Shown piece by piece: positions 1-48,890 of a stretch of 48,890 nt of DNA. The notes under the pieces are model-generated. The model ran no database searches. It was not told where the DNA came from and saw only the letters and a list, made by a program, of their open reading frames with translations. The stretch spans positions 1-48,890 of IMG/VR virus record IMGVR_UViG_3300033999_000086, one strand, 5' to 3'. Position numbers and translations under genes: made by a program. Every line of letters starts with the position of its first letter. Position 1 is the stretch's first letter. The DNA is from a virus.

Positions 1-126
1 AATACATCTTCAAAGCTTTATTAACTACAGCACTTAAACTTATGTCTTTTTCTTTTGCTTCATTGAATATTTTCTCTCTCATGCTTTTAGTAATTACAAT
101 CGTTAATCGGTTATCTTGTTTTTCAA
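1..126. repeat. 187-bp perfect direct repeat, copy 1 (right part)
   Basis: This is the continuation, across the circular join, of the block that begins at 48765. Positions 1-126 match 7915-8040 base for base. Beyond 126 the two copies diverge, although they still encode related protein ends. Confidence 0.9.
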
Positions 127-228: not shown

Positions 229-681
229 TTAATTATTCTCATCATCTTCACGTTTTGAAGCGTCGACTTTGTCAATAATGATTTTAATTTCGTTGTTTCC
301 TTCTTCTTTGCCTTCTTCATAGATCTTTGAATATTCGTTTATAAGTGCTTCGTATATTTGTAATTTTAACTCAATTAGCTTGTCTGTTCTAACATCTGAA
401 TAATCACGCTTTTTTAACTCTTCTTCTATTTCTTTCAACTGCGTGCCTAAAAGCTTTATCCTTCCTTGTTTCATCACACTGTATTGTTCAAAAAGCTTCT
501 CAAATTGTATTTTTTCAAGTTCACCAATTTCATTTGAAAGTTCTTTATTCCAATTAACAAGTGTTTTAATTGCAACTTTTAATCGCCGTGCTATTTTTGT
601 ATAGCTGTATCCTTTAGCCCGTAGTAATATAAACTGTTCTTTTAATTCATTTTTGCCACCTTCTTTTTCTATTTCATTCAA
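229..681 (-). CDS. TerS-like / helix-turn-helix protein
   Basis: A 150-residue protein read from TTG at 681, chosen because AAGGAG lies about eight bases upstream; the GTG at 690 abuts the ribosome site. Residues about 15-50 form a helix-turn-helix (GYSYTKIARRLKVAIKTLVNW), followed by long charged helices. The acidic C-terminus carries a hydrophobic strand (IKIIIDKVDAS). The phage small terminase at 38393-38791 has the same layout: an N-terminal HTH, helices, then FKVVVEYVDKEK. The sequences are not otherwise alike. It lies downstream of integrase and excisionase, where many phage satellites carry a terS. I infer a small-terminase-like packaging adaptor. A plain HTH regulator is the main alternative. 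Confidence 0.5.
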   Translation of the reverse strand: MNEIEKEGGKNELKEQFILLRAKGYSYTKIARRLKVAIKTLVNWNKELSNEIGELEKIQFEKLFEQYSVMKQGRIKLLGTQLKEIEEELKKRDYSDVRTDKLIELKLQIYEALINEYSKIYEEGKEEGNNEIKIIIDKVDASKREDDENN

Positions 682-872: not shown

Positions 873-1064
873 TTATTCTTCTTTTTTACTGTCTTCTTTT
901 AAGAATTCTATTAAGCTGTCTTCTGAAACATAATATTTCACACCAAGCTTTTTAGCTTTTAACTTGCCTTGTTTTATCCACTCCCTTAAACTTACTACAC
1001 TTATGCCTAACTTTTCTGACAATTCTTGTAAATCATACATTTTTATACTTTCTAAGTTAATCAT
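873..1064 (-). CDS. excisionase-like MerR/HTH_17 DNA-binding protein
   Basis: A 63-residue protein with AAGGAGGT seven bases before its ATG. Residues 10-57 fit the small winged-helix excisionase fold: a first helix (LQELSEKLGI), a recognition helix (VVSLREWIKQGKL), then the K(A)KKLGVKYYVSEDSLIEFL wing and closing helix. It starts 18 bp after the integrase stop and is presumably co-transcribed with it. The expected role is control of excision directionality. A general HTH regulator cannot be excluded. The phage-side gene at 11422-11658 is a related fold. Confidence 0.65.
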   Translation of the reverse strand: MINLESIKMYDLQELSEKLGISVVSLREWIKQGKLKAKKLGVKYYVSEDSLIEFLKEDSKKEE

Positions 1065-1082: not shown

Positions 1083-2018
1083 TTAAAAATCTATGTAGTT
1101 CTCAGCACCTGCTTTAATGCGTTCCAAGTTATGAAAGTAAATCATCGTTGTTTTAATGTCTCCATGCCTTGCCATCGCTTGGGCTTGCTGTATAGAAGCC
1201 CCACCCACTATTGACAACGTTATTGCTGTATGCCTCAAACTATGGGCTGTTATGCGTGAATTGTTTATACCTGCTTTTATAAAAACGTTTTTTATTATTC
1301 TTGAAATGCTTCGTGTAGTCAATGCTTCACCTTTATTTTTATTACTTAATGAAATAAATAACGGTTCACTGTCTTTTAACTGCCTGCCAGCTTCTTTTTC
1401 ACGTTCCTGAAGATAGTCTTCAATCGGCTGTAAAGTCTTTTCGTTCAATACTACAAAGTCGTCTTTTTCGTCTCTCCCCTTTCCTTGTATCCAAAGAACG
1501 GCTTGCCCTGCTTCTTGTCTTATATCCCCTATTGCCGCCCTTGCCACTTCTATTGTTCTTAAGCCCGTGCGTGCTAATAAATTGAATAAAGCATAATCAC
1601 GTTTCCCTTCTAATGTATCCGTGTTAATTACATCTAAAGATCTCCTCAATTGACTTTTGTTTAATACGTCTTTTCTGTACCCTTTTGGTTTCCTTGGACT
1701 TTTGACTTTTGCTATATTTGGGTATATCTTCATTGCTTCACTCCATTCAAAGAATTTCCTGACTGCTGTCAAATAACCTGCAACGGTCAACGATGTTTTA
1801 CCTGTATTAATTAAATATTCTCTGTAAGCTAAAATATCATCTCGATTTAAACTTTCCCCCATTCTGTTAGTATCTTTTAACCACTTGAAGAATTGTTTTA
1901 ATTGCCTGTTATACGTGCGTTTAGAAGCTTCCTTAACGTCCTGGGACTTTATAAATGCTTCAATAGCTTCTTTATCACTTGAAAAACGCTTGACTTCTAT
2001 CTCAGCCACTGCCTTCAT
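1083..2018 (-). CDS. tyrosine recombinase / integrase
   Basis: An integrase of the XerC/D and phage type, about 311 residues. Counting from an upstream GTG at 2027, residues 20-110 are a SAM-like core-binding domain (SKRTYNRQLKQFFKWL) and residues 120-314 the catalytic domain. The catalytic set is complete: R157 in ARTGLRTIE, K183 in QGKGRDEK, H262 and R265 in HSLRH, H288 in ARHGD and the nucleophile Y297. The start is uncertain. ATG 2018 directly abuts GGAGGAG, whereas GTG 2009 has better spacing. It has its own strong promoter (2114-2142) and a structured leader. It is the only integrase in the window and should catalyse site-specific integration and excision. Confidence 0.92.
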   Translation of the reverse strand: MKAVAEIEVKRFSSDKEAIEAFIKSQDVKEASKRTYNRQLKQFFKWLKDTNRMGESLNRDDILAYREYLINTGKTSLTVAGYLTAVRKFFEWSEAMKIYPNIAKVKSPRKPKGYRKDVLNKSQLRRSLDVINTDTLEGKRDYALFNLLARTGLRTIEVARAAIGDIRQEAGQAVLWIQGKGRDEKDDFVVLNEKTLQPIEDYLQEREKEAGRQLKDSEPLFISLSNKNKGEALTTRSISRIIKNVFIKAGINNSRITAHSLRHTAITLSIVGGASIQQAQAMARHGDIKTTMIYFHNLERIKAGAENYIDF

Positions 2019-2025
2019 CTCCTCC

Positions 2026-2053
2026 ACCGTTGGGGTATTTTTACCCCGACGGT
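2026..2053 (+). other. 12-bp-arm hairpin in the integrase leader
   Basis: ACCGTTGGGGTA and TACCCCGACGGT form a 12-bp stem with a TTTT loop just before the integrase start region. In plus-strand RNA the only imperfection is a U-G wobble, and ATTTTTC follows, so it resembles a plus-strand terminator. In minus-strand RNA the same position is an A-C mismatch, but the GGGGTA/TACCCC core still pairs. It may shield integrase from antisense transcription or affect its translation. Confidence 0.5.
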
Positions 2054-2234: not shown

Positions 2235-2313
2235 CTTTTTATCCGTTGTGCAACTTTTTGCACCACCGACGTTTTAATTTCCAGTCCAGGAATTATTTCC
2301 TGATCTGGTAGTT

Positions 2314-2874
2314 TTATAAAAACTTCTGAATAACAAAGTTTAACAGTTCGTTTTTTGAAATCCCCAGTTCATTTGAAGCCTTATTTAATTTCTTTTCGCT
2401 TTCTTCTAACATTCTGAATGAATTTACTTTCTTTTCTGTGCTTCTGTACATTCTTCTAAATTCTATATCATTTCTAAAAAGTTCTTTTATATTTGCTTTT
2501 ACTTCTGTTTCACTTCGTTTGTTTTCTACTTCTACTTGCTTATTCATTTCACTTTGCAAGCTATTTGCTTCTGTTTTGCTTTCTTCTTCTTTATTTCCTT
2601 CCAATGCTTTTAATCTACTTTCTAACTGTGTAATTCTTTCACTTAGCTTTTCATATGCTTTCGTTTCAATTTCATAGCTTGACGCTTTTACATTGCTTTC
2701 TTTTGCTTCTTCTTGAATAGCTTTGTAATCCAAGCCAGTCACTTCGTTGAAATACCTTGAAATGTCGTGCCTTGTTAGTGGTAATAGCTCCCTCTCAATT
2801 CGTGACGGAGTATAACCTTGCTTCAAGTAACTAATAATCTCATCTTTGTATTTAACTACGTTATCCCTGCTCAT
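2314..2874 (-). CDS. HTH and coiled-coil protein of unknown function
   Basis: A 186-residue protein. Residues 5-45 look like a helix-turn-helix (YLKQGYTPSRIERELL, then TRHDISRYFNEV). Residues 65-130 are a highly charged coiled coil (ERITQLESRLKALEG). The C-terminus has a further helical segment (SNELGISKNELLNFVIQKF). I do not recognise a family. It is the last gene before a terminator and the integrase promoter in the satellite-like segment. That position and a DNA-binding N-terminus would suit a regulator or replication/partition accessory, but this is inference only. Confidence 0.6.
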   Translation of the reverse strand: MSRDNVVKYKDEIISYLKQGYTPSRIERELLPLTRHDISRYFNEVTGLDYKAIQEEAKESNVKASSYEIETKAYEKLSERITQLESRLKALEGNKEEESKTEANSLQSEMNKQVEVENKRSETEVKANIKELFRNDIEFRRMYRSTEKKVNSFRMLEESEKKLNKASNELGISKNELLNFVIQKFL

Positions 2875-3375
2875 TCACCTTACCCCCTTTTAATATCAAA
2901 CTAATATCATACTATCATAAAAAAAATAAAAAGTTATTCACTTGCTTTTTGAAAGCATAGTAATTACATTGTAATCTTATTTCTGAATGAATGCATATTT
3001 TAGCTTTTACCTCTTTGTATAAGCTTCCAGGACGTTCTTTATATGCCTTCCTGTGTAACTACCTTATTGACACTAAAAACTTTTAACCTGCTTTAGAATA
3101 CAAAGCCCTGGGAAGTTATTTCATGCCTTGGGAATAAAAAAAGACTGCCTAAAAATAGACAATCTTTTTAAAAAAATGAAAAACACGCTTTAGCGTTCAA
3201 AAAGTCCATAATTAAATAAGTTGTAAAGTAAATACTTGCAACCACCTCTTTGTATAAGCCCCTGTATGCGTTTCTTTTTTCTTTCACGGTAAATTATATT
3301 CAAGCCGTTTTTTCTTTTAACCTGTTTAGAAATGCAAGCTAATTTAAGCATATTTTTCACTATCTTCTATTTCTT
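2875..3375. other. 500-bp gene-poor region with decayed repeats
   Basis: I see no convincing gene here. ACCTCTTTGTATAAGC occurs at 3009-3024 and again at 3244-3259. CGTTCAAAAAGTCCAT at 3194-3209 is identical to 4680-4695, the start of the 4408-4695 gene, so a decayed copy of that gene start is present; here it opens only a 13-codon frame. The region also holds the terminator at 3143-3164. It looks like the residue of duplication and deletion. Confidence 0.5.
3143..3164 (-). terminator. terminator after the 3376-3747 gene
   Basis: Minus-strand RNA forms GAUUGUCUA / UAGGCAGUC with a UUUU loop. All nine pairs form, three of them as G-U wobbles. A-rich sequence lies upstream and UUUUUUU follows. 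It closes the small-gene operon that starts upstream of 4294. Confidence 0.7.
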
Positions 3376-3747
3376 TCAATTGTTTAAAATCAACAACGCC
3401 CTTTTTATTAGTTTAAGCCATTCATTGAAATCACAAGTATCATCCCATTTTTTGTTTTGACCCTCAAGCCATCTTCTATTATTTTTATATAATAAAAAAA
3501 GCTGTGTAATTGTCTGTTTCGTTTCTAAATCAAACGAATATAACGCCTTGCCTTCCTGTTTAAAAGCCTGCGTAAGTTCTTTATCGTGAAAAGCCCCGTC
3601 AAATTTTTCAATCCATTTATTATATTCACTTTCCTGTAATTGCTTCAAAACAGGCAAATTTAAATCAAGTAAAACATACGACTTATTAATATTACCAGCA
3701 AGCTTTTTAACTTCTTCAAGTTCTTTAATAAATTCTTTTACAGTCAT
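3376..3747 (-). CDS. hypothetical protein
   Basis: A 123-residue acidic, helix-rich protein. The start is the ATG at 3747, which follows a GGGGGG ribosome site at normal spacing; the frame stays open further upstream but without such a site. Visible segments are an N-terminal amphipathic helix (VKEFIKELEEVKKLAG) and a C-terminal WLKLIKRALLILN helix. There are no catalytic motifs or membrane segments and I recognise no family. It lies 46 bp after the 3794-4294 gene and before a terminator, so the two probably share a transcript. Confidence 0.6.
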   Translation of the reverse strand: MTVKEFIKELEEVKKLAGNINKSYVLLDLNLPVLKQLQESEYNKWIEKFDGAFHDKELTQAFKQEGKALYSFDLETKQTITQLFLLYKNNRRWLEGQNKKWDDTCDFNEWLKLIKRALLILNN

Positions 3748-3793
3748 TTTTTTACCCCCCTTTGTTTTGGTAATGCTATATAAGTTCAAGCTT

Positions 3794-4294
3794 TCAATTA
3801 TAAATTTCATAATCTTCTATTTCTTTTATTCTTTCATCTATGTAATCATCAAACCAGCTTGAATAAAAATCTATTTCGTTCTCAAAAACTACATCATCCA
3901 ACTTTTTAGAAATTTCTGACGGTAAGCTTTCAAGAAATTCATACTTGTCAAATTCTTCATGTTCTTTCTGAAATGCTTCTAATGCTTCCAAACCGCCTGG
4001 GATATATTTCAACATAATGCTAAGATCTTCTAAGTCTGTATTGTCTAAACTTTGCCCTTTTATAAAGTCCTGTGCGTTAAACCTGTGAATAGCTATCGCC
4101 CTGCCATTCCAAACATCGCCGTCCATGCTGTTTTCTGACGTATACGTTGCTATGCCAACTTTACCGTCCTGACTAAGAATAACCTCAGTAACGCCCATAT
4201 TCATTTCAAAAGCTTGCTTTAATGCTTCTTCTAACTTATCCAAAATTTCATCACGGTTCTTTTCAATTAATTTTATCCATTGCTTACTTTTCAT
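3794..4294 (-). CDS. 166-residue paralogue-family protein (satellite copy)
   Basis: A 166-residue protein that is clearly homologous along its length to the 166-residue product of 12607-13107. Shared stretches include QWIKLIEKNRDEIL, EEALKQAFE, VILSQDGKV, GDVWNGRAIAIHRFNA and VVFENEIDFYS. The start is supported by AAGGAGGT ten bases upstream. The N-terminal helix (W, then E-A-L-K-Q-A) recurs in the products of 13304-13657 and 13673-13987. The family is unknown to me, with a predicted helix, beta-hairpin and helix layout. Having one member in the satellite-like segment and three on the phage side suggests exchange between the two, or a shared target. Confidence 0.7.
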   Translation of the reverse strand: MKSKQWIKLIEKNRDEILDKLEEALKQAFEMNMGVTEVILSQDGKVGIATYTSENSMDGDVWNGRAIAIHRFNAQDFIKGQSLDNTDLEDLSIMLKYIPGGLEALEAFQKEHEEFDKYEFLESLPSEISKKLDDVVFENEIDFYSSWFDDYIDERIKEIEDYEIYN

Positions 4295-4407
4295 TTCTTT
4301 TTACCTCCTTATTTATTTATCAAACTATTTAACAAAAACAAGCCCCCACGTTAGAAAAGTCCGTATACAAAATTATGCAAATTATACAATTGTATATTAC
4401 TGCCATT

Positions 4408-4695
4408 TTATTCTTTTTCTTTTTCTTTGCCATTTGTTTCATTACAAGCATTACCATGCGTGGTATTAGTTGCAACTTCATTCTGTTTTACTATTTCCAG
4501 CCAGCTTTTGCCTTCCATTTCTTCACCCCCTTTTGAATACAACTTATAAAATTCTTTTTGTTTTTCGTTCATGTGTTTACCCCCTTTCGTTTGAAAGCCT
4601 TCTTTGTTTTCTTTTTCTTTAATATTTGTTTCATTAGAAGCATTATCATTATTGATATTATTTCCAGTTTTTTCTTTTTCGTTCAAAAAGTCCAT
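4408..4695 (-). CDS. low-complexity protein with nested in-frame starts
   Basis: A 95-codon frame starting ATGGACTTTTTGAACG. It is rich in N, E and K and contains an internal duplication: NASNETNIKEKEN is echoed by NACNETNGKEKEK. Two strong ribosome sites lie inside, AAAGGGGGTAAACAC before an in-frame ATG at about residue 42 and AAAAGGGGGTGAAGAA before one at about residue 60. It may therefore be read as three overlapping products, or be a fusion of three small genes. The function is unknown. A trace of its start lies at 3194-3209. Confidence 0.45.
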   Translation of the reverse strand: MDFLNEKEKTGNNINNDNASNETNIKEKENKEGFQTKGGKHMNEKQKEFYKLYSKGGEEMEGKSWLEIVKQNEVATNTTHGNACNETNGKEKEKE

Positions 4696-4769
4696 ATAAA
4701 AACATTTTCAAAAATAGCTTGCGTCTACACTGTCAACTTTTTTAAATTGACTTTATTGACTATTCTTTT

Positions 4770-5012
4770 TTAGCTAAACGGCTTGAATGGTAATTCACGC
4801 CTATAAATCTTCATTACCGTTTCCTTGTTTCCAACAAACTGCATTGCGTATAATTTACCGTCCCTTGTATAATACCGTGCCATCACTTTCAAGCCTTCAT
4901 TTATTGCCAGTTCTTTTATATTTGCGTTCGTTGTGTATAAAGCATAAGTATCTTTATCTAACTTCCAATAGTCTTTTTCTTCTTTATTCACAGCGTTTAT
5001 TGTTTTTACCAT
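4770..5012 (-). CDS. small hypothetical protein
   Basis: An 80-residue protein with AAGGGGAT nine bases before the ATG. It contains a central helix (ANIKELAINEGLKVMARYY) and a following beta-strand pair (GKLYAMQFVGNKETVMKIY). I recognise no family. It is the first gene on the distal side of the iteron origin, so a replication-associated role is possible but unproven. Confidence 0.55.
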   Translation of the reverse strand: MVKTINAVNKEEKDYWKLDKDTYALYTTNANIKELAINEGLKVMARYYTRDGKLYAMQFVGNKETVMKIYRRELPFKPFS

Positions 5013-5133
5013 ATTATTATCCCCTTTAGTTTTATTTTTATCATTTCCAAGAAAAAATTTCGTTGTTTATACCCGTCCATTTTTGATTAAATTTTTTTGA
5101 ATATTTATTTGCGTTCAACTTAAAAACCACTTC

Positions 5134-5542
5134 AAACATGCATGGTTATCGGACGCATCCAGGATATCCTGGATTGTATTTTTTATATCCACCATTGTCG
5201 TGTTTTGAAACATGCATGAATATTGATCGCATCCAGGATATCCACCATATCCACCTTTTTTATTATTAATTATATATATTTATTTTTTACCCCCACGCCC
5301 CTACATTTTCAATCAAAATAAGGTATATTTACTATAAATTTTTTCTACTACTTTTTAAAATAATCATGGATATCATGGATGCGTTTAGTATTAATGCGTA
5401 TTTGAAAGATCTTTTTTCAAAAAATAATCATGGATATCATGGATGCGTTTAGTATTAATCAATGTTTTAGGCATGCTAAATTTCCAATTTTTTAAAATAA
5501 TCATGGATATCATGGATGCGTTTAGTATTAATGCGTATTTGG
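5134..5542. repeat. iteron array, probable replication origin
   Basis: Three copies of a 39-bp repeat containing ATGGATATCATGGATGCG start at 5357, 5421 and 5494; the first and third extend into GCGTATTTG. Two units in the opposite sense (5134-5169 and 5208-5243) share AACATGCATG followed by CGCATCCAGGATATCC. The first of these lies within a perfect 18-bp palindrome, ATCCAGGATATCCTGGAT (5157-5174). The inverted sets flank a very AT-rich stretch (5256-5350) that could unwind. The array directly follows the primase-helicase gene. I infer a theta-type origin bound by an initiator, possibly the primase itself. The 5013-5133 part shows no gene. Confidence 0.75.
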
Positions 5543-5560: not shown

Positions 5561-7615
5561 TTACTTATATTTAATCCCTATTACTGCTCTTAATAACTTT
5601 CCATCTGTCCCAACGGGTCTATAATCACGATAAGGTATATACTTAGGTAATTGTGTGAAAAACGCTTTTTGTGAAAGTGCTGGTATATTATTCTTTCTAC
5701 AATACTGTATAAAATAATTATAAAGATCTTGCTTGGATATCCAATCATCGGGGGACTCTTCTAAATGCTCCTCTTCAAAAGCATAAACGGGGTTGGACTT
5801 TCGTTTATACTTTTCTCTAATTTCTTTATCTTCTGTAAAGCCACCACGTTTTAAAACTCTTTTTAAGCCATCTAAAGCTAAATTTAAAAAGTAAGAAAGT
5901 GCTGTTTTGGTAGTCAACTTTTCAATAAGATGGGGGTCTCTTTTGTCTCCGTCAAATGTCTCTTCAAAGTCAATAATTTTCCATCTTCTAAAAAATGCGT
6001 TGGACTCGTCTTTAGCGTCGGGGACTGTATTCGTAGAAAAAATTAACTTAGCTATATTCATAAAAGAAAAAGGCTCCTGAAATTTCTTTTCACCTTTTAC
6101 AACGCCGCCCCCAGTTAACATTTTGAAACCTCCAGTGGTGGCTAACGCTTTGTTAGACAAGTCATCGGCTATATTTGCAAGCTTCCCAAAAAGTGACGCC
6201 CGTGAAAACTGTTTACTTTCAAGATCTTGCAACGTTTCTGTACTGTAGTTTCCATCGCCTATAAGTGTTTTCAAAAGATTTAAGAATGTCGTTTTGCCAT
6301 TACTGCCACCACCTACCAGCATGAAAGCTTTATTATACCTGTAATCGCTATATAGACAATAACCTGCTATCTCTTCTAAGTCTTTTCTTTTTGCTTCGTT
6401 ATAGCTTGTAATTTCATCTAAAAACTTGTCAACTGTTTCATCGTATGCCTCGGGGTTGTAGTCAACAGGTATTTTATAAGTAAAATAGACATCGGGGGTA
6501 AAGTCCATTAGTGTGAAAGTTTTTATATTAAAAAGCCCGTTGTTTAACGGTATCAACGACTTATTAGTATTAATTTCTTTTCTGTCAATGTAATTTCTGT
6601 CTTTTAAATGTTCTATAACTTCGTTCTTAACATGCGTAGAAGCTTTTTCAAGTAGTATGCTTTCAACTGCTTGCCTAATATACCCATCCCCTGGGTGGTA
6701 AATGCCGTCTTTATATACGTATATTTCTCTTGTATCTCTTGGGGTTATAAAATGCTTATTTTCAAGTTCTTTTAAGCATATACTTATTAGCCTTTCTGTC
6801 TTTGACAAGTCTTTATTTTCTTCTTGACTGCTTTTGTTTTCTTTATTCTTATTTGCAAGGGGGTTCTGTTTATAAAAAAAGCCGTACGGTTCAACGGGTC
6901 TGTAAGCACTTTCAACTATGTTCTCAACTTCTCTGTCATTCATAGGGGGGTTATTCTTTTTATTCCATTCTTTGACTAAACTTAAAGCCTCTTCTTTTGA
7001 AAGTCCCTGCTTCCTGTAAAACGTTGCTAACTTAATACCGCTGTCGTTTCTACTGCCTTCACTTACACCGTTTATAATCGTGTCTATGTCAATAGCGTTA
7101 TTTACAGTGTTTTCTGAAATTAACTTATAAATAAGATCTTGTATATTAGTTAATCTTTCATGGTTGGGTATAGTGTCACCTGTGAAAGTAAAATACCTTT
7201 TAGAAGAATAAATTTCTATACCTTTGTCAAGGTCTTTCAATGTGAAATTTCCAAGTGCATAACCTAATATATGCAAGCCTTCACCACTGGGGGATACCTC
7301 AGCATAACAGGGGTAAGTATTTAAAATTTCTTGAATTGCTGACTTAAGCTCTCCGTCAATAAAACAATCATCAAAGTCAATGCCTACAATTCCATTGCCT
7401 AAAACAAAGCCCAAGCCACTTATACCTTTCGTATTCAAATATTTTTTTGCTGTTTCAAGGTCCGTCCAGTTTTGACTTTCATTAATGCTAATGGGTCCAC
7501 CTCTTACCCAGGGGGCAACGGGTAACTTTTTGCCATCGTTATCACTCCAACATATCCATCTTTTTTGACTTGCAAGCTCGGGGGGTACTTTAATATCTCT
7601 TTCAAGTTCTTTCAT
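5561..7615 (-). CDS. P4-type primase-helicase (prim-pol, PriCT, D5 helicase)
   Basis: A 684-residue replication protein. Residues about 10-170 match a prim-pol-like domain, with GIDFDDC as the metal site and SPSGEGLHI. Residues about 180-240 fit a primase C-terminal helical domain (KLATFYRKQGLSKEEALSLVKEW). Residues about 270-680 are a D5/SF3 helicase with Walker A GGGSNGKTT (about 434-442), acidic ADD, sensor FSTNTVPD and RRWKIIDF. Such proteins combine priming and unwinding in satellites, plasmids and some phages. It sits beside the iteron array. Its codons favour CCC, GCC and GGG (for example near 5750 and 7510), unlike the structural genes, which suggests separate ancestry. AAGGAG precedes the ATG. 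Confidence 0.92.
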   Translation of the reverse strand: MKELERDIKVPPELASQKRWICWSDNDGKKLPVAPWVRGGPISINESQNWTDLETAKKYLNTKGISGLGFVLGNGIVGIDFDDCFIDGELKSAIQEILNTYPCYAEVSPSGEGLHILGYALGNFTLKDLDKGIEIYSSKRYFTFTGDTIPNHERLTNIQDLIYKLISENTVNNAIDIDTIINGVSEGSRNDSGIKLATFYRKQGLSKEEALSLVKEWNKKNNPPMNDREVENIVESAYRPVEPYGFFYKQNPLANKNKENKSSQEENKDLSKTERLISICLKELENKHFITPRDTREIYVYKDGIYHPGDGYIRQAVESILLEKASTHVKNEVIEHLKDRNYIDRKEINTNKSLIPLNNGLFNIKTFTLMDFTPDVYFTYKIPVDYNPEAYDETVDKFLDEITSYNEAKRKDLEEIAGYCLYSDYRYNKAFMLVGGGSNGKTTFLNLLKTLIGDGNYSTETLQDLESKQFSRASLFGKLANIADDLSNKALATTGGFKMLTGGGVVKGEKKFQEPFSFMNIAKLIFSTNTVPDAKDESNAFFRRWKIIDFEETFDGDKRDPHLIEKLTTKTALSYFLNLALDGLKRVLKRGGFTEDKEIREKYKRKSNPVYAFEEEHLEESPDDWISKQDLYNYFIQYCRKNNIPALSQKAFFTQLPKYIPYRDYRPVGTDGKLLRAVIGIKYK

Positions 7616-7808: not shown

Positions 7809-7896
7809 ATAAAAGACTTATAAAACAAGTGAAATGTCTTTAAACTTTTTAGATGGAGTAAAGAAGGGCTCCCAACCAAACTTTACTCCATTTTTT
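7809..7896 (+). ncRNA. predicted small RNA B
   Basis: A transcript of about 88 nt would run from the consensus promoter at 7774-7802 to a strong terminator: TGGAGTAAAG (7854-7863) paired with CTTTACTCCA (7881-7890), then TTTTTT. No open reading frame of note lies inside. The terminator loop carries GGGCTCCC, and its CUCCC is complementary to GGGAG ribosome sites such as that of the 48467-48622 gene. A near-identical RNA is predicted at 48728-48808. It converges on the 3' end of the RHH gene at 7901. Confidence 0.6.
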
Positions 7897-8040
7897 ATTT
7901 TTATTTTTCATTAAAATACATCTTCAAAGCTTTATTAACTACAGCACTTAAACTTATGTCTTTTTCTTTTGCTTCATTGAATATTTTCTCTCTCATGCTT
8001 TTAGTAATTACAATCGTTAATCGGTTATCTTGTTTTTCAA
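7854..8040. repeat. 187-bp perfect direct repeat, copy 2
   Basis: This block equals 48765-48825 plus 1-126 across the circular join, without a mismatch. It covers the small-RNA terminator and most of the RHH gene. Upstream, 30 more bases (7821-7850 against 48732-48761) are also identical, then three bases differ. Recombination between the copies would split the circle into about 7,914 and 40,911 bp. Confidence 0.92.
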
Positions 8041-12606: not shown

Positions 12607-13107
12607 TTAATTAAATTTTTCCTCTTCCTCAAGCTGTTCAATGTATAAATCAAGATCGACGTCAAACTCTGCTGAATACCAATCTACTTCATTCTCGAAG
12701 ACAATGTTTAAAAGTTCTTTTTTTACTTCAGAATCTAAATTGTTAAGAAATTCGTCTATATTGAATTCTTTATGCTCTTTTTGATACTTTTCGACTGTTT
12801 CTAATCCGTTTGGAATATTTTTTAACAGCCGTTCTAAATCTTCTATATCCAAATCATACACACTTTCACATTTTCTATAATCTTCTGCGTTGAATCTTCT
12901 TATTGAGATTGCTTTTCCAGTCCATACGTCCCCATCTGTAGTATTTTCTGAAACATAGTTTGCTATATCTACCTTGCCATCTTCATCGAGAATAACTTCA
13001 AATACTCCACTTTTTGCTTCAAAAGCTTGTTTCAACGCTTCTTCCATTTTTTCCAAAATCTCATCTCTGTTTTCCTCAATAAGTTTTATCCATTTTCTGT
13101 TTTCCAT
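12607..13107 (-). CDS. 166-residue paralogue-family protein (phage copy)
   Basis: A 166-residue protein of the same length as, and plainly homologous to, the product of 3794-4294. The start ATG 13107 is set by AAGGAG ten bases upstream; the GTG at 13116 is too close to it. Shared parts are RKWIKLIEENRDEILEK, EEALKQAFE, EDGKV, GDVWTGKAI, RRFNAED and VFENEVDWYS. Related shorter proteins follow at 13304-13657 and 13673-13987. The role is unknown. Small acidic, paralogous early proteins are often host-takeover or anti-defence factors; I see no direct evidence here. Confidence 0.7.
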   Translation of the reverse strand: MENRKWIKLIEENRDEILEKMEEALKQAFEAKSGVFEVILDEDGKVDIANYVSENTTDGDVWTGKAISIRRFNAEDYRKCESVYDLDIEDLERLLKNIPNGLETVEKYQKEHKEFNIDEFLNNLDSEVKKELLNIVFENEVDWYSAEFDVDLDLYIEQLEEEEKFN

Positions 13108-13237
13108 TCTTCTCACTCTCCTTGTTTTCTACATTTTCTTTTGCTTTTAATATTTCTAAAGCTCTTTTATATGATTTTGAAAGTTCATCATTCTTATTTT
13201 TATACTCTTCAATTGAATTGTCTAAATCTTCAGCCAT
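13076..13237 (-). CDS. small helical protein
   Basis: A 53-residue, entirely helical, highly charged protein (MAEDLDNSIEEYKNKNDEL, ending KQKMDKTY). AAAGGAGGA lies seven bases before ATG 13237. Its end overlaps the start of the 12607-13107 gene by 32 nt in another frame. The ribosome site and codon content make it likely real. Function unknown. Confidence 0.55.
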   Translation of the reverse strand: MAEDLDNSIEEYKNKNDELSKSYKRALEILKAKENVENKESEKNGKQKMDKTY

Positions 13238-20477: not shown

Positions 20478-20574
20478 CTTTTTCATCTCCTTTTTTAATT
20501 TCTTTGTTTGTTATCCAAATTTGTTGTTTTGTATCATCATCGAACTCGATTATTATTCTTTTTATTTTCAGCAT
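20464..20574 (-). CDS. 36-residue ORF after the reverse transcriptase
   Basis: ATG 20574 has GGAG seven bases upstream, and the frame ends at 20464 (MLKIKRIIIEFDDDTKQQI ... GDEKGESK). It overlaps the end of the reverse transcriptase by 38 nt and the next gene by about 14 nt. A beta-hairpin-like sequence with many charges. Its position next to a DGR reverse transcriptase is notable, but it is far shorter than known Avd proteins. Function unknown. Confidence 0.4.
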   Translation of the reverse strand: MLKIKRIIIEFDDDTKQQIWITNKEIKKGDEKGESK

Positions 20575-21568
20575 ATCTCATCTCCAGATTTTTAATGTGT
20601 TTCTGATACAAACGATAAGAATCACAATGTTTTAGCCACCCCTTATAGCTTTGAATACTACAATTATCTTTATATGAAATATTTTTGTGATTGCTAATAT
20701 TTTTCATTTTATGCTTCATTCGCTTTTTCGTCCCGGTTCTTAACAATGTAAAATCTTTAAAAATTCTGTATCCTAAAAAATCTATGCCTCTAACATTTGT
20801 TGGAAACACTTGCCAATTAGATTTTATTTCAACTCTTAAGTTTTCTCTAAAATACCAGTCAAAATGTCTTTTTAGCCAATGTAAATATTTTTTATTTTTA
20901 TGTAGTATAACAATATCGTCCATGTATCTAAAATAATATTTTATGTGTAAAGTCTGTTTACAATATCTATCAAATTCAGTTAAATAATAATTAGCAAAGT
21001 ATTGAGACAAATAATTTCCAATCGGAATTCCTTTATCAAATGAATCGATTATTAAATCTAACAGCCATAGCAAATCTTTATCTTTGAATTTCCTTCTCAA
21101 TTTGTCTTTTAAAATTTTATGATTTATACTTGGATAATACTGCTTTATATCCAGCTTTAAACAATACTTCGTGTTATATTCATCTTTCAAAGCTTCTTTA
21201 ACTCTTTTTAATCCAAAGTGTATTCCTCTATTTGGAATAGAGCTATATGTATCATAGATAAACATTTTTTCAAATATAGGCCCTATAATTTGCAATACTG
21301 CCCATTGAATAATTCTATCGGGATAGTAAGGTAATTTGGATATCAATCTTGTTTTGCCTTTATCGATTTTCTCAAAAACTTCATAATTAGATACTTTATA
21401 TGTTTTATTGATTAACATCTTTTGAATTTCTTGACAATAATACTTTGGATTTCCATCAACCATTTTTACTTCTTTATAAAATGTTTTGTTTTTCCTTGCA
21501 TTGGAATGTGCTAAAAGTAAATTATTAATATCAATGATTTGTTCAAATAAATTTCCGTATCTTTTCAT
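20537..21568 (-). CDS. diversity-generating retroelement reverse transcriptase
   Basis: A 343-residue reverse transcriptase. The start is ATG 21568 (MKRYGNLFEQIIDINNLLLA), with AAGGAG five bases upstream and the N-terminus typical of DGR enzymes, including AHSNARKNK. The catalytic core has KLDIKQYYPSI (D140) and YMDD (215-218). Motif 4 is GIPIGNYLSQ (180-189), the (I/L/V)GxxxSQ form characteristic of DGR enzymes, where group II intron enzymes have QGxxxSP. No maturase, endonuclease or msr/msd element is present. It copies the template-repeat RNA (21681-21792) with misincorporation at adenines, and the cDNA replaces the variable repeat in the 21856-22899 gene. Confidence 0.96.
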   Translation of the reverse strand: MKRYGNLFEQIIDINNLLLAHSNARKNKTFYKEVKMVDGNPKYYCQEIQKMLINKTYKVSNYEVFEKIDKGKTRLISKLPYYPDRIIQWAVLQIIGPIFEKMFIYDTYSSIPNRGIHFGLKRVKEALKDEYNTKYCLKLDIKQYYPSINHKILKDKLRRKFKDKDLLWLLDLIIDSFDKGIPIGNYLSQYFANYYLTEFDRYCKQTLHIKYYFRYMDDIVILHKNKKYLHWLKRHFDWYFRENLRVEIKSNWQVFPTNVRGIDFLGYRIFKDFTLLRTGTKKRMKHKMKNISNHKNISYKDNCSIQSYKGWLKHCDSYRLYQKHIKNLEMRYAENKKNNNRVR

Positions 21569-21647
21569 AAATCTCCTTGCTTGTTGTACTTTCCACAATT
21601 TCGATTTTTAAGTCTACTGTTGTGGATTTCTCAATTTTTCTGTTTGA

Positions 21648-21792
21648 CCCAGAGGTCTGGGAAGAAAAAGGCGCAAAAACAAGTAAGGTGAGAGCCGATA
21701 TTCCGATTCGAATTAGACGGAGTATTATTCAGATTCAAAGTGAACAGTCCAGCTTGCAATCCATTATTCCAATTCGTGCTCGAATGAGCGAC
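21648..21792 (-). ncRNA. DGR template repeat (TR) and spacer hairpin
   Basis: TR occupies 21681-21792 and is read on the minus strand. It aligns without gaps to the variable repeat 21873-21984. Of 112 positions, 23 differ and all 23 are A in TR; the other 82 non-A positions are identical. Nine AAT codons make it adenine-rich at the diversified codons. Homology ends at both sides shown (TR TAA against AGG upstream; GTTTTT against CTTATA downstream). In the spacer toward the reverse transcriptase, CCCAGA and TCTGGG (21661-21648) form a perfect hairpin. The transcript of this region would be the template RNA. Confidence 0.96.
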
Positions 21793-21855: not shown

Positions 21856-22899
21856 TCAAATCTCAATATAAGAAGCAAGGCGAGAGCCGATACGCCGATC
21901 CGAATAAGACGGAGCAGCAGACAGACTCAAAGCGAACAGCCCAGCCAGCAATCCATAATGCCAACGCGCGCCCGAAAGAGCGACCCTTGCGCCTGTATTC
22001 ACCCATGTATAATCTGTTAAATAAGTTGATGATGAGCCATTGAAAGAATATTCAGGAATCAGCCCCCATGGAATTCTTTTATCGGTTGACTTTATATATC
22101 CATAAGTATAAACAGTAACATCTGCCCGTGGATAAAACTCTTTCATATTTGCGGGCGTTGTCACATTGTTTTCAATATCAAAATATACTCCTTCTGCAGT
22201 CTTTAAAAATCCGTCTAAAAACTCCCAAACGTTTCCCCACAAGTTTTCTATCCAGAGGAATCTAAACGGATAAGTCACAGTTTGCCCTGTTTGAAAAGTA
22301 GCTCCGTTTTCAAGTGTAGTTAGTGTAACTTCTCCATCAGATTGAGAACCTAAACTCAAAGTATGACCAGTATTTTGACTGTGATTGACCGTTCCAGAAT
22401 TTAAATTTGTTATTCCTTGACTAAGAGATGATTGCGAGTTTAAATTTCCATATTTCAGAGCAAATAATAATCCGAGTAGTCCATAGTCGTATCCGTTTTT
22501 CAATCCATAATAGGTTCCAGCGTTTGGAGTTCTATTTTTTGCAGCAGTTCTAAACTGATCGATAGTTTTCAAAGTTGTAGGTTGAACAAAAGGAATCGAA
22601 CGTAATCTATTGTCAATATCTACATATCCTTCAAAAGCTCCCAATCTTCTTTTGCAAACTTTTCCATTGTAAATAAAAGCAGGATGGAGTTCATAGCCAA
22701 TTTTGTAGTCCCAACTTAGCCATGTTTTCCAAGTGTTGCCTTCCAAAGCCACTTTGTAATAAATTGGTGGAATTTCTACTTTATAATCTACAACGTCGTT
22801 ATCGGCACTCGTTATCGTTGACGTATTCGAGTATTCACCAACTTTTGCACCTGTAATCTTGTCTACACTAATAAACTTTATTCTACTGAAATCAAACAT
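21856..22899 (-). CDS. DGR target: C-type-lectin-like variable tail protein
   Basis: A 347-residue protein. The N-terminal 100 residues are beta-rich (VEIPPIYYKVALEGNTWKTW). The remainder has C-type-lectin-fold marks seen in DGR targets: YDYGLLGLLFALKYG, then RFLWIENLWGNVWEFLDGF. The C-terminal variable segment at residues 306-342 includes RWHYGLLAGLFALS and RRIGSRLA. Twenty VR codons contain a template adenine and 17 residues differ from the TR-encoded version. Codons in VR are GC-rich compared with the rest of the gene, as expected after A replacement. It overlaps the Dit gene by 8 nt, so it is probably a receptor-binding protein at the tail tip whose ligand specificity is diversified. Confidence 0.93.
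   Translation of the reverse strand: MFDFSRIKFISVDKITGAKVGEYSNTSTITSADNDVVDYKVEIPPIYYKVALEGNTWKTWLSWDYKIGYELHPAFIYNGKVCKRRLGAFEGYVDIDNRLRSIPFVQPTTLKTIDQFRTAAKNRTPNAGTYYGLKNGYDYGLLGLLFALKYGNLNSQSSLSQGITNLNSGTVNHSQNTGHTLSLGSQSDGEVTLTTLENGATFQTGQTVTYPFRFLWIENLWGNVWEFLDGFLKTAEGVYFDIENNVTTPANMKEFYPRADVTVYTYGYIKSTDKRIPWGLIPEYSFNGSSSTYLTDYTWVNTGARVALSGARWHYGLLAGLFALSLSAAPSYSDRRIGSRLASYIEI
21873..21984 (-). repeat. DGR variable repeat (VR)
   Basis: A 112-bp segment at the 3' end of the lectin-like gene, offset 192 bp from its template repeat at 21681-21792. It ends 17 bases before the stop codon. Changes from the template are A to G, C or T on the coding strand only. The invariant ATCGGCTCT near its 3' end would be part of the initiation (IMH-like) region. 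Confidence 0.96.
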
Positions 22900-36037: not shown

Positions 36038-37210
36038 TTATTGTACTTCTTGTCTCATTCTTATATCGAGTTCGTCTATATCATTTCTTAAAGATTCTTT
36101 TATTCTTGTTAGCAACTCTTCACTCCAGCCCTTCAATTCAGCTATTTGCTCAATTGCTATCTCATTTGAAATTAATCCACTTTGATACAATGTTATCGTT
36201 TCTGTTATTTCCTCTTTCTGATTTTGAGGAATAATTTCATATACTTCAACTTCTATTTGAGTTTGCAGTCTCAACATTTCTTGAATGTAATTGAATAGCT
36301 TTCTTATGCCTTTTGCAAAATTATCTCTGTACAATTCTATTATTGAGATTAAACTTAACAACTTCAAAGAGATAGCATATCCACTTTCTCCGCTTCCTTG
36401 AATTGCTTCCTGTATTTTCAATTCGGGATATTGCTCTTTTACTTGCCTTTTAAGTTCTTCAATTTTTTCTTTGAGTATACTGACTACATTTCCTTGCATC
36501 TCCAAATATTTTATCTCTCCACCTTCCTCAACCTGCAAGTGTTCAATCTCATTGTCTTCAATATCCGACGCCGATCTTTGTATTTTCATTTGCCCCCAAG
36601 TTGGAGCGTCTGCGTGTTTTGTGAATATAACTTCCATATCCGCCTCGTATTTGTTTATGAGATCTAGCAAATCAGGCAAGTTTTCAATTCTTGATATAGT
36701 CTCCGTTCCACCTTCTTCATCTTTTCCGGAGATTTCAAAGATGGGGAAGATCATATTTTCATAAAGTATCGGTGTAGCTTGCTCTTCTCCAATTCTCATC
36801 CATCTTTTGTTATCTTTGTCAATGAAATATTCTTTATGCTTGAACGGACTTTCTCTATTTATTTTAGCATTGATAATATTTCCTTGTGAATCGTATTCAC
36901 AAGAAATCTGATCCGATGAGTAGATAAAAATAACAGGCTTATTATTAATGACTTCAATGTCAACAAAAGCCCGATCGTATAGTTGTTCTTTGATTATTTT
37001 TGATTTTATGTAATTCCAGTCTATTTGAGAAGTGATTTCATCTGCTCTAACTTTCACCGAATTTCGTATAAGAGAAACATCTGTATCAATGATAACAGGC
37101 ACAGGATTGTATATTTGTTTTACACGAGGCAAAAGTCCACGTAGATTTTTATATATCTCATCGTATGCTTCACCTTTCGTTAGTTTTTCAAATATAACTC
37201 TGTTCATCAT
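36038..37210 (-). CDS. portal protein (SPP1 gp6-like)
   Basis: A 390-residue portal of the SPP1 family: DVSLIRNSVKVRADEITSQI, IFPIFEISGKDEEGGTETIS, ENLPDLLDLINKYEADMEVI and SGYAISLKLLSLISIIELY. AAGGAG lies six bases before ATGATG, and the gene abuts the large terminase stop. It forms the ring through which DNA is packaged and ejected. It is somewhat shorter than SPP1 gp6 (about 500 residues), as in related prophages. Confidence 0.85.
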   Translation of the reverse strand: MMNRVIFEKLTKGEAYDEIYKNLRGLLPRVKQIYNPVPVIIDTDVSLIRNSVKVRADEITSQIDWNYIKSKIIKEQLYDRAFVDIEVINNKPVIFIYSSDQISCEYDSQGNIINAKINRESPFKHKEYFIDKDNKRWMRIGEEQATPILYENMIFPIFEISGKDEEGGTETISRIENLPDLLDLINKYEADMEVIFTKHADAPTWGQMKIQRSASDIEDNEIEHLQVEEGGEIKYLEMQGNVVSILKEKIEELKRQVKEQYPELKIQEAIQGSGESGYAISLKLLSLISIIELYRDNFAKGIRKLFNYIQEMLRLQTQIEVEVYEIIPQNQKEEITETITLYQSGLISNEIAIEQIAELKGWSEELLTRIKESLRNDIDELDIRMRQEVQ

Positions 37211-38409
37211 CAGACGCTCCTTTTTATTTTAATCTTGATATTCCTTGCCGTTTCATCGTATCCCATGAAGTACTCACAAGCATATCTCATAGCGTCCATA
37301 GCATGGTCATTGAATTTCACGGGTTCGTCAAGTATTTCTCCATCTTTCTTTTCCTTCCATTTATACGACTGAATTTCTTTTATAGTATTCGCACATGTTT
37401 CATGAATATAAATCTTCTTTCTTTTAAGCAAGTCTATTCCATTTGCGACTTTTTGCTTTGCTTTTTTTGCAGCTCGAATATTGAAACCTGCTCGTTCTAT
37501 TTCTTTTATCCTGTCTGGCTCTGTATCAGAATATATTTCATCATATCTATTGTCTACAAAATTTTTCAGTTTCTCGATTAAATCTTCATTCGTCAAATGA
37601 GTTTCGTATAGCTCATCAAGAATATAGATATCATCGTCTTTTATGCCAATCTTCAAACAAGCTGTCGGATTGTTATATCCAAAGTCCAATCCGTAGACTA
37701 TCTCATCAAATTTTTCTGGTAGCTTTGAAACGACTTTGTAATTGCTATAAATTTTATTCTTTAGTATTGCAAACTGTCCAAGAGTGTATATTTGATAGTA
37801 GGTCTCATCTTGTTCTTTGAGATACTCCAACATCTTTGTATATTCAACATCCAGGAACGGATTGTCAATGTACGTTGAATGCAAAATCGCAACATCATCA
37901 CTTTCTTGTTCAAAGAACTGTTTCTGTGTCCAGCCTGCGACGGGGTTAAAAGTCAAAAACATTTGATTGACTGAATTTGTCGACCTTCTCAATCTCAATT
38001 TCAACTGCAAATAGTCCTCGTAGTCAAATTCCGTTGCTTCCTCCATCCAAACATAGTTGAACTCCGAAGACTTGATTTTTTCTGCGTCATCCAACCCCCT
38101 AAAATAAATCTCGTTTCTCCTGGGTAACTGCAAGACTTGCTCAGATTTATTTTCAACATAAGGAACCTCTAACTCGTTCAAAATTTCATGCACTAATTGC
38201 CATGTAGTAACTTTTAGTGAGGGATTATATTTTCTGGTAATTAAAAGCCTTTTGTTCCTATTACTCAACAACTTTTCGATTAATAAAAATTGAGCAACAG
38301 TATAAGACTTCCCACTTCCTGCTCCACCATATACTATGATTTCTTTCTGCTTTTGGCTTTCTTGAAGAAACGCATATATTTTCTTTATTACCTTAACTCT
38401 CGCTTCCAT
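37210..38409 (-). CDS. terminase large subunit
   Basis: A 399-residue packaging motor and nuclease. Walker A is GGAGSGKS (28-35), Walker B lies in YVWMEEATEF, and the coupling motif in MFLTFNPVAGWTQ. The nuclease domain has VYGLDFGYNNPTA, SDTEPDRIKEIERAGF and FNDHAMDAMRYACEYF, the RNase H-like acidic residues of the terminase_3 (PBSX/SPP1) group. It overlaps the small terminase gene by 17 nt. Related enzymes in this group mostly use headful (pac) packaging, which a satellite TerS could redirect. Confidence 0.95.
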   Translation of the reverse strand: MEARVKVIKKIYAFLQESQKQKEIIVYGGAGSGKSYTVAQFLLIEKLLSNRNKRLLITRKYNPSLKVTTWQLVHEILNELEVPYVENKSEQVLQLPRRNEIYFRGLDDAEKIKSSEFNYVWMEEATEFDYEDYLQLKLRLRRSTNSVNQMFLTFNPVAGWTQKQFFEQESDDVAILHSTYIDNPFLDVEYTKMLEYLKEQDETYYQIYTLGQFAILKNKIYSNYKVVSKLPEKFDEIVYGLDFGYNNPTACLKIGIKDDDIYILDELYETHLTNEDLIEKLKNFVDNRYDEIYSDTEPDRIKEIERAGFNIRAAKKAKQKVANGIDLLKRKKIYIHETCANTIKEIQSYKWKEKKDGEILDEPVKFNDHAMDAMRYACEYFMGYDETARNIKIKIKRSV

Positions 38410-38791
38410 CTTGCTTTTCCTTGTCGACGTATTCTACAACTACCTTGAATCCATCTTTATCAGCCGACAAATCGACTTTGTCTTTCCTTCCCCAATCTTC
38501 AAAATACTTCCTTTCTAACCACCACGCTGCTGCTTGCCAATTCCCTTCTTGCGCTGCACGTTGAATCAATGCGACATTTCTTGCAATTGCGTCTTTTTCT
38601 GCCTTTTTCACAGTCTCGTAAAATTCTCTTTTCATGCCGCTTTTAGCTTTCTCACCTTCGTTTAACCAGCGAAACCACGTCGAATCATCTATTCCGAGGA
38701 TAGGGGGTATATCTTTTATATAATTTCCTGCAGAAACCAGTTTAAACGCTTCTTTGATAAGTTCTTTTGTTAATTTCGATTTTCTCGGCAT
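38393..38791 (-). CDS. terminase small subunit
   Basis: A 132-residue protein starting MPRKSKLTKELIKEAFKLV. An N-terminal helix-turn-helix (AGNYIKDIPPILGIDDSTWF, then RWLNEG) is followed by oligomerisation helices (AIARNVALIQRAAQEGNWQA). The C-terminal strand FKVVVEYVDKEK contacts the large subunit in this family. It recognises the packaging site. The satellite-side protein at 229-681 shares this order of parts. Confidence 0.88.
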   Translation of the reverse strand: MPRKSKLTKELIKEAFKLVSAGNYIKDIPPILGIDDSTWFRWLNEGEKAKSGMKREFYETVKKAEKDAIARNVALIQRAAQEGNWQAAAWWLERKYFEDWGRKDKVDLSADKDGFKVVVEYVDKEKQDGSES

Positions 38792-48727: not shown

Positions 48728-48808
48728 GTAGTAAAACAAGTGAAATGTCTTTAAACTTTTTGAATGGAGTAAAGAAGGGCTCCCAACCAAACTTTACTCC
48801 ATTTTTTA
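48728..48808 (+). ncRNA. predicted small RNA A
   Basis: A transcript of about 80 nt from the promoter at 48693-48721 to a perfect ten-base hairpin terminator (48765-48774 with 48792-48801, then TTTTTT). From 48732 it is nearly identical to small RNA B (7821 on): 30 identical bases, three substitutions (GAA against AGA region), then identity through the terminator. It converges on the 3' end of the RHH gene that crosses the contig join. Confidence 0.6.
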
Positions 48809-48890
48809 TTTTTATTTTTCATTAAAATACATCTTCAAAGCTTTATTAACTACAGCACTTAAACTTATGTCTTTTTCTTTTGCTTCATTG
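48765..48890. repeat. 187-bp perfect direct repeat, copy 1 (left part) and 65-base terminal redundancy
   Basis: 48765-48825 matches 7854-7914. The last 65 bases (48826-48890) equal positions 1-65 exactly, so the repeat continues at the window start when the contig is closed. The 65-base redundancy is the kind left by a circular assembly. Confidence 0.9.
48812..48890 (-). CDS. ribbon-helix-helix protein, copy 1 (C-terminal part)
   Basis: The stop codon lies at 48814-48812, and the frame continues to the right edge, encoding the end of the protein whose start is at 172. The last 65 bases duplicate positions 1-65, so only 48812-48825 add new sequence. Same product as described for 1-172. Confidence 0.75.
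   Translation of the reverse strand, partial: NEAKEKDISLSAVVNKALKMYFNEK

Follow-up and report, generated by a model that had tools for sequence, protein, structure and literature searches.

A candidate chimeric small-terminase-like protein in an integrase-bearing element found with a tailed phage

Satellites that carry their own small terminase (TerS) have been described (PMC6739421, PMC8494744). The TerS-S proteins of SaPIs and PICIs are satellite-borne and small-terminase-like, as is the product of the open reading frame considered here (the ORF), for which recruitment of a helper's large terminase (TerL) can likewise be proposed (PMC6739421, PMC8494744). However, SaPI TerS is described there as a homologue of phage TerS, whereas in the ORF only the tail appears TerS-like and the body comes from a plasmid helix-turn-helix (HTH) family; the packaging role of the ORF is moreover a proposal. 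Rpp of the Escherichia coli PICIs is also a satellite protein made of an HTH and helices, and it redirects packaging, as is proposed for the ORF. It does so by binding phage TerS and borrowing its TerL-binding end, while the ORF appears to have a TerS-type tail of its own (PMC6739421). Helper-embedded PICIs (HE-PICIs) resemble the element described below in their integrase, HTH_17/AlpA-type gene and primase, and in being lodged in a helper genome. They lie in late genes and bring no sequence to replace the gene they interrupt, and terS is missing from 11capE (PMC10111431). The present element differs on both counts: the RHH gene at its site is found in complete form on either side, and the element has a TerS-like gene. 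A mobile genome inside a phage genome is also seen in SpaA1 and BceA1, which carry MZTP02; this is described as a phage, whereas the inner element here is small and contains no recognised virion genes (PMC3398947). The HTH protein of p29887 and pLRI05, together with its relatives, is homologous to the ORF in the HTH and hairpin over about 105-120 residues and has the same integrase and HTH_17 neighbours. These proteins have another C-terminus with no TerS tail, and are annotated only as helix-turn-helix proteins. Both small terminases of satellites and satellites embedded in their helpers are already known; a literature search covering mostly papers outside subscription journals found no published satellite TerS that combines a plasmid HTH body with a phage-type tail.

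The element and the phage it was found with

The stretch of DNA analyzed here (the window) comprises a whole IMG/VR virus record, 48,890 bases long. It begins and ends with the same 65 bases, so that a circle of 48,825 bases is probable. Among its genes are those of a tailed phage: TerL, TerS, a major head protein, a scaffold, tail proteins, DnaB, and a replication initiator. The nearest named relative of TerL is that of Thermoanaerobacterium phage THSA-485A (48.5%), and the only matches of the resident TerS are to viruses of Methanobacteriales, which are methanogens, at 33-38% (3 of 50,697 phage records). The two proteins therefore give no common indication of the host. The phage also carries a diversity-generating retroelement (window 20537-21598, 21678-21792, 21870-21984, and 21856-22899), with a reverse transcriptase beside a tail protein gene. 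Its template and variable repeats are 79% identical, and 23 of their 24 differences fall at template adenines.

Table 1. Positions in the window of the ORF, its parts, and the element and phage features discussed in the text
Feature	Position	Strand	Basis or remark
ORF, candidate chimeric small-terminase-like protein	229..681	-	TTG start, 150 aa; GTG at 690, 153 aa
TerS-type C-terminal tail, residues 130-153, EGNNEIKIIIDKVDASKREDDENN	232..303	-	sequence comparisons
HTH + helical hairpin domain, residues 11-120, plasmid-family homologue	331..660	-	tblastn, alignments, AF2
HTH_17 excisionase-like gene	873..1064	-	HTH_17 E 1.1e-12; excisionase PHROG E 4e-8; plasmid homologues
Tyrosine integrase	1083..2027	-	PF00589 E 1.2e-24; 40-42% identical to family plasmids' integrases
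186-aa coiled-coil protein, possible regulator	2314..2874	-	weak Arc-like and scaffold-like matches
Element gene	3794..4294	-	relatives: phage gene 12607-13116 (67.8% over 385 nt); a sister-phage gene
P4-type (D5/DUF5906) primase-helicase	5561..7615	-	TIGR01613 E 5.2e-60; DUF5906 E 1.4e-20
188-bp perfect direct repeat, first copy, candidate att core	7853..8040	.	lies in RHH gene A and the hairpin that follows
188-bp repeat, second copy	1..126 + 48764-48825, across circular join	.	
RHH (Arc-like) gene A, phage side	7901..8095	-	
RHH gene B, element side, 61 aa	172 down to 1, on to 48812, across circular join	-	
Phage TerL, presumed target of the ORF tail	37210..38409	-	Terminase_3 E 4.2e-43
Phage TerS, natural TerL partner	38393..38791	-	phrog_4102 E 4.7e-28; model matches Sf6 TerS

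The ORF lies in a 7,914-bp element with an integrase, an HTH_17 gene, and a P4-type primase (Table 1). The gene set of a PICI is thus found in a small element, and so are flanking repeats of the attachment type: the two copies of the 188-bp perfect direct repeat, a putative att, are 7,914 bp apart, and the core spans the 3' parts of RHH genes A and B together with the hairpin that follows. Both RHH genes are complete, and they are unlike at their 5' ends. The initial annotation had placed the ORF downstream of an excisionase, and the strong profile match of the HTH_17 gene bears this out. No virion structural gene was recognised among the element ORFs read (six ORFs searched against Pfam and PHROGs). 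In tetranucleotide composition the element lies at a distance of 0.294 from the phage, whose own segments of the same size (33 compared) lie at 0.120-0.204. A collinear sister record of 40,950 bases, whose TerL is 92% identical, does not have the element region, and the window circle minus the element (48,825 - 7,914 = 40,911 bases) is close to it in length; as the RHH genes are also absent from the sister, this record cannot serve as a clean empty site. The likeness between the element gene at 3794-4294 and the phage gene at 12607-13116 is a trace of exchange between element and phage. No pac or cos site was found. Two 14-bp repeats at 703 and 837, in the gap between the ORF and the HTH_17 gene, were considered as a binding site and set aside as near chance, 38 of 100 shuffles giving at least as many matches.

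By analogy with helper-embedded PICIs, such a layout is consistent with a satellite inserted into its helper. The same picture would result if the assembler had merged two separate circles at the repeat they share. The element, whether integrated or assembler-joined, is a distinct unit found with this phage.

A plasmid-type body and a TerS-type tail

The ORF is read from the minus strand, and the TTG start first proposed for it holds: a ribosome-binding site, AAAGGAG, lies 8 nt upstream of the TTG at 681 and is overlapped by the GTG at 690, so that TTG is the likely and better start. Residue numbers given here follow the 153-aa GTG form, those of the AF2 model being one less. An N-terminal HTH and long helices had also been foreseen, and both appear in the prediction. 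The HTH has sub-threshold Pfam HTH matches and a block pLDDT of 86-94 over model residues 11-60, and the modeled helices span 51-93 and 101-121. Past residue 60 the block pLDDT of this single-chain model is 71-79, and overall the mean pLDDT is 74.8 and the pTM 0.47, with a low-confidence tail. The C-terminal IKIIIDKVDAS is present at residues 135-145. AF2 draws the tail as a helix, which carries little weight because the input alignment pairs it with unrelated plasmid C-termini.

TerS proteins are laid out with an N-terminal HTH that binds DNA and a helical hairpin that oligomerises; in lambda and P22, TerL is bound by the C-terminal region of TerS (PMC9611059). The predicted order of parts in the ORF, an HTH, a helical hairpin, and a C-terminal tail, is that same layout. 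An N-terminal HTH of the DNA-binding kind is thus predicted for the ORF, and its last residues are, on comparison, of the TerL-binding kind. Among the PHROG profiles, the TerS family phrog_4102 matches residues 14-55 only, at E 0.07; there is no whole-protein match, and none at all in NCBIfam. Alignment of the ORF with the TerS alignment by hhalign is confined to 49 columns around the HTH (probability 82.6). The ORF model superposes on 2ao9, which we take to be TerS-like, with Z 5.7 and rmsd 2.9 over 65 aligned residues, and on 6ejq (G20c TerS) with Z 5.5 and rmsd 2.7 over 47, both scores being tied with those of many HTH proteins. Fold searches with this model gave no match at E <= 0.001, and the PDB entries among the matches shown are nearly all HTH proteins. 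For the resident TerS, the model fits Sf6 TerS with Z 8.7 and rmsd 5.6 over 94 aligned residues.

Judged by sequence comparison, the N-terminal 120 residues of the ORF belong to a rare HTH/helical-hairpin family of small Bacillota plasmids. Three such plasmids match residues 15-120 at E 3e-13 to 2e-11 (tblastn, 72,556 plasmid records), the best being a Streptococcus plasmid at E 3e-13 and 38.7%; one further match is at chance level. The homology with proteins of the p29887 type covers the HTH and the helical hairpin, where conserved columns are common to 12 sequences. A firm assignment to some unrelated family of HTH regulators would speak against the ORF being a small terminase, and this was half found: the match is confident, but the plasmid family is uncharacterised. 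There are 14 other family loci, including the L026 fragment, eleven of them on records of 4-14 kb and three on plasmids of 16.9, 27.7, and 38 kb. Terminal repeats occur in L028 (66 bases), L031 (55), and L044 (46). The usual plasmid order, established from annotations, Rep3 and HTH_17 searches, and reading of the loci, is primase/helicase, tyrosine integrase, ParA, RHH, HTH_17, family member, a 480-610 aa unknown protein, and a Rep3-type initiator. The window integrase is 40-42% identical to integrases at 9 of the 14 loci, and its HTH_17 gene matches too. The exceptions for the integrase are L027 (other tyrosine and serine recombinases), L032 (a serine recombinase), L025, L026, and L033, whose contig begins near the family gene.

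The plasmid homologues have a different C-terminus without a TerS-type tail. The C-terminal helical region of their longer members is missing from the ORF, where the TerS-type tail stands in its place; the Priestia family member is also short. That C-terminal region has no credible TerS match in PHROGs or Pfam, the only one being to a Burkholderia phage protein (30%, E 9). Across the 14 loci, no terminase or capsid gene was seen on the family records. Since the plasmid relatives are without the tail and their replicons without visible packaging genes, the family's ancestral role was, as far as these loci indicate, not packaging. Single-sequence pattern scans of viral and genome contigs returned no relatives of the ORF, and a pattern scan of viral contigs returned none of the window integrase or primase. 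With three family members as tblastn queries there was no match in the 50,697 phage records, a weak absence given that the resident TerS itself matches only 3 of them. In two genome sets the family was found in 1 of 398 and 1 of 291 genomes, each time the centre genome itself, at a cut-off of 1e-8; either the family is rare or this cut-off is strict.

By the same kind of comparison, the last 20 or so residues of the ORF, EGNNEIKIIIDKVDASKRED, form a TerS-type tail. The initial annotation had drawn a parallel between this end and the resident TerS, which is modest (4 of 14 residues identical) and becomes closer when the TerS proteins of related phages are considered (9 of 14 for L006 and L058, 8 of 14 for L063). 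The ORF tail reads EIKIIIDKVDASKR, those of L006 and L058 GIKIVIEEVDASVR, that of L063 GTEIIIRKVDASEK, and that of the resident TerS GFKVVVEYVDKEKQ. In single BLASTP comparisons, the ORF tail gives 13 identities in 20 residues with the L058 TerS (E 1e-5), from a relative whose TerL is 62% identical to the window's, and 12 in 19 with the L006 TerS (E 6e-5). A recent copy of the tail at the DNA level is ruled out: identity to TerS DNA is only 50-57% over 42 nt in the four TerS genes compared, and no recent transfer of the tail is therefore visible.

The TerS genes were collected beside related TerL genes, which gave 62 distinct proteins labelled TerS by position, some of these labels being surely wrong; 14 tails were chosen by eye as alignable. 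These lists, and the DNA pattern described below, were made after the ORF tail had been seen, which weakens the exact numbers that follow. When C-terminal 40-mers were compared without gaps (BLOSUM62) with 18 TerS tails, the ORF scored 65 and ranked second of 2,448 among the ORFs not labelled TerS; shuffling its last 40 residues reached that score in none of 1,500 trials. Rank 1 (L084_2508, score 159) went to a homologue of TerS that lacks the label and lies immediately upstream of a TerL truncated where the contig ends, and rank 3 (L071_320, score 60) looks like a TerS, judging by its tail. The next score, 47, was judged a chance match. With a PSSM made from 13 tails the ORF scored 21.0; none of the 2,447 other non-TerS ORFs reached it, the nearest scoring 19.2, and 4 of 20,000 shuffles did. 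Eight members of the plasmid family were named for this scoring, and the six listed under that name scored at most 2.3, the other two being absent from the ORF list and unscored. A degenerate DNA pattern for IK[I][IV]Ix[KE]VDA has three matches in all IMG/VR contigs, against a chance expectation estimated at about 0.25. One was read directly and is a TerS adjoining TerL, and the other two fall in the L006 and L058 records, whose TerS proteins carry the motif. All three are thus in TerS-bearing records of this phage group, where the motif appears to be specific to TerS. That the other holders of the motif are TerS is a finding that the post hoc choice of the pattern does not weaken.

A proposed packaging adaptor and its alternatives

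The homology of body and tail and the setting of the gene are observations, from which we infer a redirecting of packaging. On balance we favor, with moderate confidence, an ORF that encodes a chimeric, satellite-type small-terminase-like packaging adaptor, able to recruit the helper's TerL and carried by an element lodged in, or assembled with, its helper phage. The HTH would bind a site on the element and so mark its DNA, the helical hairpin would oligomerise, and the tail would dock on the helper's TerL, as is described for SaPI TerS (PMC6739421, PMC8494744). Excised element DNA could thereby be loaded into helper capsids. The "second small terminase" of the initial annotation stands as regards the C-terminus and the satellite-like setting, but not as regards the N-terminal 120 residues, which are those of a plasmid HTH family and resemble TerS at the HTH only.

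The same body is found on plasmids without packaging genes, so a non-packaging role is possible for it. The ORF might then be a DNA-binding accessory or regulator of the integrase and replication module, as on the plasmids, the likeness of its tail being due to chance or to some other contact. The family homology over 120 residues agrees with this, as do the conserved neighbours, a window-type integrase at 9 of 14 other loci, the plasmids' lack of visible packaging genes, and, weakly, the absence of relatives from the phage records. Yet the tail is the sole part that is not common to the plasmid family, and it is this part whose motif appears specific to TerS in the phage group, which leaves such a regulator a real but small chance. 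A TerS-like tail could also bind TerL as a decoy, blocking the helper while the element is not itself packaged. A protein with a TerL-docking tail but no body recognisable as TerS would be a competitor of the phage TerS, and satellites are described as interfering with helper packaging through Ppi and Rpp (PMC6739421). However, the HTH and the hairpin are kept in a predicted architecture that is TerS-like, and a decoy would have no need of an HTH; we consider it quite unlikely.

The region could finally be the phage's own lysogeny module, with no separate satellite, the ORF being a second TerS in the service of the phage or a regulator. Phage and region were indeed assembled as one circle, and one gene family is common to both. 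But the region is absent from the sister phage, its composition is outside the phage's own range, it has its own primase although the phage possesses DnaB and a replication initiator, and the perfect repeats look like att, all of which makes this explanation very improbable.

If the ORF is an adaptor for the helper's TerL, a satellite would have gained its packaging protein without copying a phage TerS in full, through the fusion of a short tail that docks on TerL with an unrelated DNA-binding protein of plasmids, and the recruitment of TerL through a short tail would be directly testable. It also raises the question of whether non-mobilisable plasmids of one family travel in phage heads by design. 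A broader reading can be put forward, which we think unlikely: the whole plasmid family would consist of small-terminase-like adaptors with an interchangeable tail, the plasmids (mostly 11-14 kb and non-mobilisable) and related elements being loadable by any phage at hand, and the window element would be a member refitted with the tail of the local helper.

Among the family loci, L022, L023, L024, L028, L031, L034, and L044 make up a family of Bacillota plasmids, mostly of 11-14 kb, with integrase, ParA, RHH, HTH_17, the family member, the 480-610 aa protein, and a Rep3-type initiator. Two of the 480-610 aa proteins were searched against Pfam and PHROGs, with no credible match. In L027, a metagenome contig, the family member comes after a tyrosine recombinase and before two genes that look by eye like a Dcm-type methylase and a Vsr-type endonuclease (2275-4009, 4034-5218).
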